Of a stretch of DNA of 60,000 bases, positions 12,973-18,900 are shown piece after piece. Every line of letters begins with the position of its first letter. Position 1 is the stretch's first letter. The stretch is taken from NCBI RefSeq assembly GCF_026151205.1, contig NC_087076.1, positions 9,712,902 to 9,772,901 on the forward strand, read 5' to 3'. The DNA comes from Bolinopsis microptera. Lineage: Eukaryota; Ctenophora; Tentaculata; Lobata; Bolinopsidae. Below the pieces are notes generated by a model. That model had not been told where the DNA came from and ran no database searches. It saw only the letters and a program-made list of their open reading frames with translations. Both the position numbers and the translations under genes were made by a program.

Positions 12973-15900
12973 CTGAAGATTATAGATGTTACTTGACAGG
13001 CTAGGAGATTAGTTTAAAATTCCACTAGCTAATCTTACAGAAATATCACTTTTCCGAGCGACATGGACATTCAATTCCAAAAAACAGTGAGTAAATAAAT
13101 AAATACTCGTCCATTTCAAGAGATAAAACTGCAACGTTATCTTAACATACTGATGCTGTTAGCTGAGGATTTGTTGTGAGAAGGAGAGAACTGGGTGATG
13201 GTGAGGAGGTCTACAGGGTTACCCCCTATTGAGGTACACAGAGTCTGTCTTCTTAACACCGAGCTTATACCGTGCAGGTGCTGTACTTCTAGTAGATGTG
13301 CCTAGGAGAGGGGAGTGTCAGACAGAGACAGAGACAGAGACAGAGACAGAGACAGAGACAGAGACAGAGACAGAGACAGACAGAGACAGAGACACACGGA
13401 CACACGGACACACGGACACACGGACACACGGACACTAACCTGTAGAGAAGAGTAAGAGTAAGGATAATGGTAGGCTATGTAGCAGGTATCATGTGAGTGG
13501 GGGAAGCAGATAGTGAAGGTAAGAGTGTGCATGTTCTGTGCCGCACTTGCTCTACCCGTGTCCTCTGTTGCTTTCCTCACGAAGTTGTTCTTGTAGTAGC
13601 AGATACGTTTACCACATCGCTGCCATCCTGTACCGTTTGTTAACGCATCGTGGGCCGAGTATAACAGCGGCTGCATTCCTGTGTGGGGACCAGTATTTAC
13701 TCAAGCCGCTTCAAGGGCTGCTGATCGATCATGCCCATAAATGGTTTCAAATGCATTTATTAAAGTTTCATAAGGCTTGGTAGTTTTTTTTTCGTTGTCG
13801 AAATTAAGAAATTGATATTGCTGAGATAATAGTAATAAACCGAAAAACACAAACCTTGGGTAAATGAAGAGCAGCTCTTCTCACAATTAATGATATTGAA
13901 CCTATAGGGGAAATCAGCGACCATGTTATGGACTTCAAAGTAGAACCACTGGTGGTGCCGGGTGGAGCCGATGTCTGAATTTAACACTAGATCATATTCG
14001 AATATCCGCACCTGGGGATTGTAACTTTGTTATTTTGGGTTATTAACAGAATTCGCTCAGTTAGCAGTGTTTTCAACAGCTGCAGTCTATGAAATCTATG
14101 AGGCACACACTAACTGAAACCCAGAATGTGCAGTCATTCTAAAGAATAAAGACAATTAACAAAAGTTATTCTTACTTGAATAGCTTTACGGAGATTCCCG
14201 CACTCGTGCCGCGATTCGAATTGTAGAATAGGGATATTAACCGTTCCTGTTGAGTTCTCTTCGTTCATGTGCTGACTCAGTACCTGTGCGGACAATTAGT
14301 AGAGTTAATGAATAGTTTACGAATTTTAAAAGTATTTTAAAAATAAATAAGTTTATCTAAAAGTAATATAAGGGCTGTGTAAAGATTCTGATGCAAAATT
14401 TGTAGTGTTCGACTAATAAATGATGTTCTGATCCGGATATTACATAATTGTGTAAAAGACAAAAATAGTAAAACATGCTCACATCAAGAGGAGGATCTGC
14501 GTTAAGTCTGGTCTGAGGAATAGAGGGGAGTATCTTACATCTTCTGAGGGCAGGGTCCCACTTAATGTTGCTGAGGGCGTGGTTACTTGGCTCCTCTGTC
14601 TTTACTAACTCGTCCTGTACAAAGGGGTATTGTTGGCAACAAATTAAGATCAGTCACAAACCTGATCAGTCAGCGCAGAGTAATAACAACAAGGTCGTGT
14701 ATACGGTACACTGCGGATTTTTGTATGCTGGTCATTCTCAATAGTGTGTGAACCAGGGATTCACAGTTTTAGCATCTAATAATTGGGAGGAAAAACAGAT
14801 ATATTGTTAATCAAGATCACAATAATAATTTAAACCTGGTCGTAAGCGATCCTGTTGATCAGTGTCTCCGGGTGAACAGCCCGAGCAATATCCAGTAACA
14901 TAAGAGTTCTCTGTACTGATTGTATCGGGTCGTATAGTTGCTCCAAGTAGTGGGGAGGTCGGTGTGAGTACATGTCTGGGGCTGCAACCTGAGCAATTGG
15001 TTCGTTAATAAATAATACAGACTCGCTTGTCTGTGTGAAGGGAGTTTATGTGAAGGGAGTTATGGAGAGCGATAGGGATAGAAAAAGTAAACTTTTTAGC
15101 ACCCCCACTAATTATTTCTTTTAAATGAAACATAAATATTGTTGGTAAATAGATAGAATACAGAATACCATACATTTTCAATACAAAAAAATATTTTAAA
15201 ATTTGGATCCAGAGATGTGACGAAGTGAAGATGTCAGAATAAAAAGCAGGAAAGTGAGTTTTAATGTAATGGTTGCAAATGATGAGGGGCTCAATAGAAG
15301 TTCCTCATGAAGGTTGGTTCCATGATAGTACTGTGTCGTCTCTTCAGTTCAGGTTTCACCAGTGAGCACATTAAACAATGTTGGTCAGGACAGGGTTCTT
15401 CGCAGACAGGTGAGAGTGGTACAGCTACTGATCTCCTCTTACTCTTGGACCGGACAAGGGACAGACTAGATCGTTGAATTGGGGTCTCCGAGCTGATGTC
15501 AGGTGTAGAGAAAGGAGTGCTTACTGTTCGTCGGACAATCTTCAAATTGGACTTGAAGCTGTGGGAGGATACTAATTTCTGTTTCTTTGGAGCCGGAACA
15601 GGCAGGAGATCTGTAAGAAGTTTCATGCTGACGTCGTTGAGGCAGGAGGGAGCGGACATAGTTCTCTTAGTGAAACTGCGGCGAGGGAGAGATCTTCTGG
15701 AGGTGACTCTGTCTCTGAGTTTCTTGAGGGATGAGGGCATCTTCATTGTGAGAGTAGTTAGTTGGTAGATGAGTAGTAGTTGTTGAGAGTAAGAAGAACT
15801 GATAATGACTTGTTTACTTCATGTTTCTATTTATACCAGCATCAGTCTGTTAACTGACTCATGTTAATTATTATTAGTATGGATGTAATCAGTCTCAGAT

Positions 15901-18900
15901 AACACAGCGTCACATCATCAGATCATATCTCGTCAGTTTGTTTTTGGTAGATCAAGTGATCTAGCCGTTATTTGATCTGGTGATAACGTGCTGACAGCTG
16001 AAACGTACCGAGATCACATTTCCCTGGCTTTAGGGATCTTGTCGTAATAAGAACACGATTTAAACACGGCAATATTTGGGGTTCATATTATTACTATCAA
16101 AATATTACCAAATCATTAATGACCATAGACTGCCTGTTGCGATCCAGCGACTCTTCATTGAACAGTCCTTAAAGGCTCTAATGGCTGTAATGTTTAGCTG
16201 CGGCCCCTATTTTAACAAGGATTACCAGATAGTTTGTTATTTGGGGTAACAGCAGATTAGCTTGCGGTTACCACTTCGGAGATTGCCCGTTCTTAGGAGT
16301 GACCAAGCCTAAATCCCAAAACAACAACTGAACCCAGGTAATACGACAACTGCACCTGAATACGACAACTGAACCGACAATTTTGTAGATCAGATTTTCA
16401 GGTTAAGTTAAGTTAAGAGGGCCTGCCTTGGCTCAGATCTCGTGCCTTTTGATGCTTGGGGAGCATTAAATCCAGTGGCGCAACGAAGGGCCCCGCTGAC
16501 CCCGCTGTGCGGGGGGGGGGGGGGGGGGGGGCGCAAAATCGTCGTTTGAATGTGGGACAATTTTGAAAAACTTAACTGAGGTACTAGCAAAACGGCGCGT
16601 TTTGATCTAGAAACATACTTTTTTAGAGATTTTACCGGCGTATCCTCTAAAATCACCTAATTTGTTCAATTTTAGGGAGAGACGCCAAAAAGGGAGGGGG
16701 CGCCAACAGGGAGGCGCCAACAGGCAACGTTACGCCACTGATTAAAACGCATCCTTTCTGACACGCTTCGTGAACACACGTATCTCAAAATCTTTGGATA
16801 GAACCCTAACTGTATATTTTCCCTGAAATTATTGCAGTAGAAACCAGACAGCAGCTAAACTAGTAGAGCTGTGTTTGGAAACCTGTTCAAGTGATCTCTA
16901 TATTTCTAGTAACGATTGGGCGCAGTTGTTGTTTCAAAGTTAACTACGAGGCAGACTGATTGGGTTTATAATTATTTTCCCAAGCTACCCTGTCTAGGAA
17001 AAGTCCATATTGGGTTGAGTTGTCTGGTATAATCAATAACTCCTTCCTGCGCAAAGAAGTACTGGACAGATCGCCGAAAAAGGAACATGGGTCTGGTAGT
17101 TTTTACCTGTTGAATATTCTTAGTAATTTGTAATTTGATTTAAGTTAATGTCATAATAATCCATTATACACTTGATGTAGTGACATTGGAACGTTGAATA
17201 AATTTCATTTACCCGAAAAGAGCATTTTCCCGTCGCATACACGGAATCATCAGAAACATTAAATTATGTTGCCTATTAGACGTGGGTATCCAGAATGTAA
17301 ACTTGTATTTGTGCATTGAAAATAGATAGATACAGCTTATATCACATATTTGATATTATAAATAAAATAATTAGTGGAAGGTTTCAACGAGAGGTCTCCA
17401 AATCTGGTCTCAATAGAAGTTCCTCATGAAGGTTGGTTCCATAATAGAACTGTGTCGTCTCTTCAGCTCAGGTTTCACAAGTGAGCACATTAAACAATAT
17501 TGGTCAGGACAGGGTTCTTCGCAGACAGGTGACAGGGGCCCGGCTACTGCTACTGATCTCCTCCTCCTACTTTTGGATCGAACCAAAGAAAGACTGGAGC
17601 GTTGTATGGGTGTTTCTGAAGTGTGTTCCCGAGTTAGGAGAGGGGTGCCGGTTGAGGGAGGAGCTAGGGTGGTACCAAGACGTTTCAAAGACTTCAAACT
17701 AGACTTGAAGCTGTGAGAGGAGAGTTTATGTTTCTTGAGCTCAGGCTGTGGTTCGGAGAGCATCTTGAGGTTAACATCATAGAGACAGGAGGGAGCAGAG
17801 ACGCATCTCTTGGTGAAAGGACGGTGAGGGAGGGATCTCCTGGAGGTGACTCTGTCTCTGAGCTTTTGGAGAGTTGAGGGCATCTTCATTGTTAGTTGGT
17901 AGATGAGTGGAAGTAATAGTTGGGAATGGTAAGAGAATGATTGTTGTGTAATTCGTACGTCTATATATACTACTACTAGTACCCCACTGTTGAATGTTAA
18001 TTGATCCATGTGGCTGTTAATTGATCCTTGTGACTGTGTATTTGCCTGCATGTGATCGGTCTCAAATAGCATCAAGTCATGTCTCGTCTGTTCGTTTTGA
18101 GTGGATCATGCGACTATAGTAAGTTATTTGAGCAGTCAAACGCTTTACAGGGATCACATAACCTCGGTGTCATGGTTCTCATAACAACCAGTGACATTAC
18201 CCCAGAGATCAGGTAACAAGATGGTTCACAGTCGGATCACGTGACACCTCGCAGATTGACTTCCTTCTTGTGCCAGACACGTCGTAATTAGAAATTCATA
18301 GAAAAATACATTAAATTAAGACGTGAGAAATAATTGTAGATGAATGGCTAGTCAACAACCAATTGCCTCCAAGCCAAAAACCGTGAGAAACAATTAAAGG
18401 ATGGCTAGTCACAATCCAGTTACTACATACTTTAGAAACATACGTGAGAAATAACAAACAAATGGTCAGTTAACAACCAATTACCTTGGCGAAGTGTTTG
18501 ACTGCTTTAGCAGGGGGAGGCGAGTAGGAGGCAGTTAGAACGGGGGAATCTCCTAGCGACATGTTGCTCAGAGAGTTGGTTACAGACTTCACGTTCCTAC
18601 ATGATCTCTTAGAGGTCACTGATCTTCTGGAGGAATGAGTTAGTTATTGAATGATAAGTTAGTTATTAAATAATGAGTTAGTTATTGAATGATAAGTTGG
18701 TTATTAAATGATGAGTTAGTTAATTAATGAGCTGGTCGTCAGATAATTGATCGATTAACTATTATGTATTATTATGGGTGATAAAAACCAGCTAGAAATG
18801 TTTACAGATCTACAACTTTGATGTAGTACGATAGAGAAAATATAACTTGACGAAAGAGTCGTGATCTTTGCAGGGAGAGTACTCACGGAGGAAGGTTGGG

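Follow-up and report, generated by a model that had tools for sequence, protein, structure and literature searches.

Short basic proteins that carry both a candidate phosphorylation site and a small cysteine cluster recall several described systems, and we compare these here with a pair of neighbouring single-exon genes, g1 and g2, from the comb jelly Bolinopsis microptera. The pair lies in a 60,000-nucleotide stretch of contig NC_087076.1, referred to as the window, whose numbering gives all positions below unless another contig is named; related loci of the same genome are denoted g3 to g7. Among 14-3-3 client adaptors are the class IIa HDACs and the CRTCs, which, like g1-g7, have an R-x-x-S-A-P-type site in a basic and apparently disordered region; by contrast, the g1-g7 proteins are much shorter, match nothing in Pfam and contain neither an HDAC nor a CREB-binding domain. 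TTP (ZFP36) is likewise basic, with R-x-x-S sites and a C-terminal P-x-F resembling that of g1-g4, whereas none of the seven proteins has the tandem CCCH arrangement of TTP or any Pfam zinc-finger match. CCHC knuckles, spaced C-x2-C-x4-H-x4-C, and CCCH fingers resemble g1-g4 in bringing three Cys and a His together within about 20 residues, but the spacing in g1-g4 differs (C-x4-C-x2-C-x10-H), Pfam gives no match, and metal binding by these residues is putative. Finally, the Bearded family and other arthropod Notch targets are short, single-exon, tandemly arranged genes whose products have a basic N-terminus. The same is true of g1 and g2, and Su(H)-like sites are present upstream of g2; the sequences are nevertheless unrelated, and the Su(H)-like sites fall in a degenerate, roughly 60-bp repeat, with none within 500 bp of g1 or g4.

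Results

A tandem pair and its distant relatives

Both genes are on the minus strand, g1 at 15291..15746 (151 residues, isoelectric point (pI) 10.8) and g2 at 17410..17889 (159 residues, pI 10.4), each a single-exon open reading frame (ORF) with an ATG in fair context. An earlier reading of this DNA from its letters alone (the sequence-only reading) had described two intronless paralogues of a basic protein here, with common termini and a diverged middle. The two ORFs, their basic character and their termini are as described: both proteins start MKMPS[ST]L[KQ] and carry CEEPCPDQ[HY]CLMC near the C-terminus. That the genes lack introns is borne out to the extent that each consists of one open frame. 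The divergence of the middle is not uniform, as one stretch of 17 residues is identical in g1 and g2. Overall, the proteins are 77% identical over their alignment. On the 5' side the genes can be aligned across the 5' untranslated region and promoter, and on the 3' side the block of high similarity ends about 4 nucleotides past the stop codon.

Searches of the species' own genome covered 264,652,675 bases in 232 contigs, and the resulting copy counts are lower bounds. The g1 query returned four loci, namely g1 itself (E = 1.2e-91), g2 (5.0e-58), g3 (5.3e-7, at C5:1858106) and g4 (3.4e-6, at C12:10905185), and g4 as query recovered the identical four. A query composed from the C-termini gave seven matches: g1-g4, at E = 2.2e-7 or better, and in addition g5 (C3:700793, E = 0.0057), g6 (C2:5262768, E = 0.014) and g7 (C2:18937416, E = 0.19), whose open frames of 228, 247 and 218 codons, respectively, all begin MK[IL]. 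Open frames are intact in all seven members. The reversed C-terminal query had no match in the genome, an empty answer that is uninformative by itself. With the C-termini of g5 and g6 as queries, two more weak places emerged, C8:10487696 (E = 0.11, a 47-codon frame) and C6:1664072 (E = 1.7, a 59-codon frame).

A hidden Markov model (HMM) built from g1-g4 scored g5 at 20.0 bits and g7 at 17.9 bits; among about 3000 shuffles of each protein the maxima were 16.2 and 10.9 bits, so that no shuffle attained the score of either. Conversely, with an HMM of g5 and g7 the scores of g1-g4 were 11.1-17.5 bits, which none of 2000 shuffles per protein attained, and g5 and g7 match one another at E = 5.6e-13. 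We regard g3 and g4 as clear distant paralogues of the pair, and g5 and g7 as more divergent ones; that g1-g5 and g7 are one family is well supported. The membership of g6 is tentative. Its 13.8 bits with the g1-g4 HMM are marginal against a shuffle maximum of 13.6, its 8.5 bits with the g5/g7 HMM are reached by 2 of 2000 shuffles, and it has neither the central block described below nor an R-x-F-Y end. Two further observations speak against grouping all seven: a composed N-terminal consensus query recovers g1-g4 only, and the homology of g5-g7 to g1-g4 depends mainly on a 40-residue stretch.

Shared blocks

All seven proteins have a pI of 9.9-10.8 and a net charge of +16 to +21 in 150-230 residues, and start with MK or MR followed by a basic segment. 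Six positions are invariant (g1 numbering): S31, P33, C119, C124, C127 and P132. The first two belong to an [RK]-x-x-S-x-P site that all members have with Ser and Pro in register and that six of the seven have with Arg at position -3; with coordinates derived arithmetically from the ORFs, as for all blocks and for the TATA boxes below, it occupies 15648..15665 in g1 (codons 28-33, R-T-M-S-A-P) and 17789..17806 in g2 (codons 28-33, R-C-V-S-A-P), both on the minus strand. A central block, [IVP]-[RKQ]-[RQ]-[ST]-[SN]-L, is common to six of seven members (in g1, I-Q-R-S-S-L, codons 90-95, 15462..15479, minus strand); when each protein is shuffled, it arises in 0-0.4% of cases.

The C-terminal module spans codons 119-151 of g1 (15294..15392, minus strand; C-x4-C-x2-C-x10-H ... 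P-x-F-x-R-x-F-Y) and codons 127-159 of g2 (17413..17511, minus strand). Its core, C-x(3,4)-C-x2-C, is present in all seven proteins and in 0.2-1.1% of shuffles per protein; P-[EH]-[LF]-[KR] follows the three Cys, and R-x-F-[YD] stands at the C-terminus of six members. The full spacing C-x4-C-x2-C-x10-H is kept in g1-g4, and C-x10-H can also be read in g6. The sequence-only reading had given the motif as CX3CX4CX2C: the last three Cys of this motif are retained throughout the family, while the first (C115) is absent at that position in g3-g7. The small metal- or partner-binding C-terminus that it suggested is plausible, because three Cys are common to all members.

Purifying selection and gene conversion

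By the Nei-Gojobori method, g1 and g2 differ by 0.15 nonsynonymous (dN) and 0.88 synonymous (dS) substitutions per site, a dN/dS of 0.17 (bootstrap 0.10-0.26). Codons 1-45 give a ratio of 0.15 and codons 46-112 one of 0.14; the pair is under purifying selection, as the check proposed in the sequence-only reading bears out. Synonymous divergence is uneven, with dS of 1.0 in codons 1-45, 1.7 in codons 46-112 and only 0.14 in the C-terminal 39 codons. Of the residues that g1 and g2 share, 31 of 34 in the C-terminal region are encoded by an identical codon, whereas the N-terminal region has 21 of 32 and the middle part 18 of 43; in the identical 17-residue central stretch, just 4 of 12 codons are the same over 12 of its residues. 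Between g1 or g2 and g3 or g4, the same codon is found at only 4 to 7 of 18 positions of the C-terminal region. A tract of 144 nucleotides at 15287..15430 (minus strand) is 92% identical to 17406-17549 and ends approximately at the stop codon. By this pattern, the near-identity of the g1 and g2 C-termini is largely gene conversion rather than constraint at the nucleotide level. For this reason little can be concluded from the C-terminal similarity of the pair taken alone, and the C-terminal dN/dS of 0.149, from five changes in the converted tract, is by itself no evidence.

No recognised relative in the collections searched

Pfam-A hmmscan at E up to 10 found no family for any of the seven members, and profiles of four and of seven members found no match in the PDB, also at E up to 10; the g1 sequence gave a single chance match there (E = 0.7). 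These results agree with the sequence-only reading, which recognised no family. The C-terminal profile gave five PDB matches, the best of which (E = 0.0017) was to PELREKH (nine residues) occurring four times in a designed bundle, at 4-5 bits per repeat; we read it as chance. Among 84,980 prokaryote genomes there were 27 pattern matches, and in viral contigs 28, none of them confirmed by tblastn; the C-terminal module had 32 pattern matches in viral contigs, again none confirmed. In the literature searched, titles and the openings of abstracts contained no description of the family, which is no proof of its absence from print. AlphaFold2, run on g1 with the g1/g2 alignment, returned a mean predicted local distance difference test score of 50, with helix 5-16 alone at all confident. 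Such low confidence fits disorder, but would also be expected from a two-sequence alignment.

Promoters and upstream elements

Each gene has its own TATA box, as the sequence-only reading had it: TATAAAT at -89 for g1 (15829..15835, minus strand) and, for g2, TATATATAG (17961..17969, minus strand), in which TATATAT and TATATAG start at -80 and -78. With a predicted TATA promoter of their own, g1 and g2 would be expressible independently of the carboxypeptidase gene that hosts them (described below).

A CACGTG E-box lies upstream of g2 at 18238..18243 (-354), and the 13-mer that surrounds it also occurs upstream of g3. CACGTG is found within 500 bp of g2, g3, g4 and g5, and not of g1 or g6 (for g7, 106 bp were examined). 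As background, 60 of 360 500-bp segments of this genome (180 kb, GC content 39.4%) contain at least one CACGTG; against it, the chance of such a site at three or more of g1-g4 is 0.016, and that of six or more sites 0.030. A third control showed no enrichment of E-boxes upstream of TATA-like words. The upstream regions of g2 and g3 have 15 nine-mers in common. None of the 360 background segments reaches 15 with either region (maxima 12 and 11), nor does any of 500 shuffles; random segment pairs from the window, however, do so in 15 of 1451 cases. An E-box regulator common to the members is therefore only a lead. Elsewhere in the window, at 34046-34341, four CACGTG within 300 bp precede a TATAAA at about 34362, which resembles another promoter.

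Upstream of g2, the degenerate repeat of about 60 bp at 18306-18486 bears three CGTGAGAAA sites (18322-18451). The idea that the genes are Notch targets was rejected: the window holds seven Su(H)-like CGTGAGAAA sites against 3.87 expected, a number matched by 11 of 100 shuffles, and the three near g2 sit in this repeat. Within 500 bp upstream, core Su(H) sites number two for g2 and one for g3, with none for g1 or g4.

Discussion

A tentative adaptor function

The reading that we favour, while holding it only tentatively, is that g1-g7 are largely disordered adaptors of the 14-3-3 type, switched by phosphorylation and equipped with a small cysteine module that probably binds zinc. The basic, disordered chain would serve as the backbone of the adaptor. 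A basophilic kinase would phosphorylate the serine of R-x-x-S-x-P and thereby create a 14-3-3 site, and the central block would be a second kinase site or a docking site. One zinc ion may be held by the three Cys and a nearby His, and the last 40 or so residues, thus held, would offer a binding partner their aromatic end. We infer the kinase, 14-3-3, zinc and partner steps from the shared blocks.

Several details do not sit well with this proposal. Lys replaces Arg at position -3 in g7, and shuffling each protein produces [RK]..S.P by chance in 15-42% of cases; because of this frequency, the aligned position is the sole argument for the site. The His is displaced in g5 and g7 and its alignment column is not invariant, and owing to that displacement the position of a fourth zinc ligand is uncertain.

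Among the other explanations, it is somewhat unlikely, though less so than the rest, that these are nuclear nucleic-acid-binding proteins whose positive charge and Cys knuckle contact RNA or DNA directly, with phosphorylation just tuning the contact. The high net charge in proteins of this size would suit such a role, and single Cys knuckles do occur in nucleic-acid binders. Yet C-x4-C-x2-C-x10-H is neither a CCHC knuckle nor a TTP-type CCCH finger, all seven proteins lack a Pfam match, and both the central block, which is the most constrained, and the aromatic C-terminus have the look of protein docking motifs rather than of nucleic-acid contacts. Docking of a particular kind is what a further and clearly less probable alternative proposes, in which the proteins are substrates or docking proteins of a mitogen-activated protein kinase (MAPK) pathway, with the central block as a D-motif and Ser/Thr-Pro sites as targets. 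The rule for a MAPK D-motif is a basic residue, then L-x-hydrophobic; R-S-S-L-S-L, R-Q-T-S-L-G-V, K-Q-S-S-L-T-M and K-R-S-N-L-R-L fit basic-x(2,3)-L-x-hydrophobic, and three to five Ser/Thr-Pro sites occur in each of g1-g4. Against this, R-Q-T-S-L-N-T-L of g3 fits poorly, g6 has no central block, and D-motifs are short enough to be matched easily by chance. The MAPK reading is also compatible with the 14-3-3 adaptor proposal, as one of its steps.

The C-terminus suggests yet another comparison, with adaptors of the TTP or Nanos type that recruit CCR4-NOT, in which P-x-F-x-R would bind CNOT1; we consider this very unlikely. The C-terminal L-P-x-F motif of TTP binds CNOT1, and the terminal P-[TS]-F-[MLI]-R of g1-g4 resembles that tail. 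A composed TTP query found two separate TTP-like loci in this genome, neither of them among g1-g7, and one (L022, 1438-2103) has a frame ending ...SRLPVFSGLGTA, which we take to resemble the vertebrate CNOT1-binding tail. The likeness of g1-g4 is nonetheless limited to P-x-F, the Pro is absent in g5-g7, and CCCH fingers are lacking. Least credible of all, and highly improbable in our view, is that the ORFs are debris of a mobile element or retrogene, that is, fragments of a repeat-encoded protein. Single exons, a tandem copy and a location in an intron would be in keeping with such an origin, which the sequence-only reading had itself named as a way in which it could fail. Just two close and two to five distant copies were found in 264.65 Mb (lower bounds), however, and this paucity of copies argues that g1 and g2 are not repeat-encoded; moreover, dN/dS is 0.17, all seven frames are open and there is no Pfam match to a mobile element.

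A broader proposal builds on the 14-3-3 adaptor reading. The family may have arisen within comb jellies, its proteins built on a minimal zinc module of a new type (C-x(3,4)-C-x2-C...H) plus an aromatic C-terminal tail and linking phosphorylation signalling via 14-3-3 to a partner specific to comb jellies. Its diversification may have continued by way of single-exon copies scattered in the genome and of a tandem pair still under gene conversion. In its entirety this scenario is speculative and rather unlikely. Should the C-terminal module prove to bind zinc, it could represent a small fold of a new kind. Because single-exon families restricted to one lineage are common, the surprise is moderate; even so, an orphan family with named blocks (one serine, three cysteines and a six-residue C-terminus) turns an 'unknown gene' into one that can be approached by experiment.

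Host gene and genomic surroundings

A scan of codon usage combined with Pfam located exons of a cytosolic carboxypeptidase gene of CCP1/AGTPBP1-like type; its introns are long, and it spans 2661-36340 of the window on the minus strand, perhaps extending to 50 kb. Upstream of g1 and g2 is an exon region with TPR_CCP1_N (36137..36340, E = 6.8e-12). Downstream follow an exon region with Pepdidase_M14_N (13763..14029, E = 9.2e-5, at 23.0 bits just under the cut-off of 23.2), an M14 catalytic exon read by eye (12806..12979, an open frame with HPGES and no Pfam M14 match) and an M14 exon region with NPDGV (2661..2900, Peptidase_M14 at E = 0.013, below the cut-off), all on the minus strand. Along this strand the exon order is that of the protein from N- to C-terminus. 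As the exons flank g1 and g2 on both sides and in order, the pair lies inside a same-strand intron of the carboxypeptidase gene, which gives substance to the term 'nested' in the sequence-only reading.

Two similar genes with a pentraxin domain lie on the plus strand at 4672-5493 (Pentaxin, E = 4.1e-23) and 9829-11052 (E = 1.1e-23); with M14 exon regions on either side, at 2.7 and 12.8 kb, both are nested within the host gene in antisense orientation. Long repeats of simple or tandem type can be read as open frames at 27070-28021 and at 33288-33916 (KGKRKPL; SL/RE). Further along, at 51879-52727 on the plus strand, a frame of 282 codons without a Pfam match looks by eye like the C-terminal part of a reverse transcriptase of the non-LTR (long terminal repeat) type. 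A glutamate-receptor locus of this genome accords with its comb-jelly origin: over the S2 lobe it scores 116.7 bits with the structurally solved receptor ML032222a and 103.3 bits with the kainate-like 4zdm, both from comb jellies (Mnemiopsis and Pleurobrachia), against 49.3 bits for the best other receptor. Over the longer frame a vertebrate kainate receptor comes first, at 227.5 bits, ahead of the 256-residue ML032222a chain at 213.6 bits. The locus nearest to ML032222a shows 77% identity across 129 residues. In the genome as a whole, a glutamate-receptor pore peptide matches at 31 places (E up to 10), and since 12 of these fall in single open frames of more than 900 codons, single-exon receptor genes seem to be common in this species.

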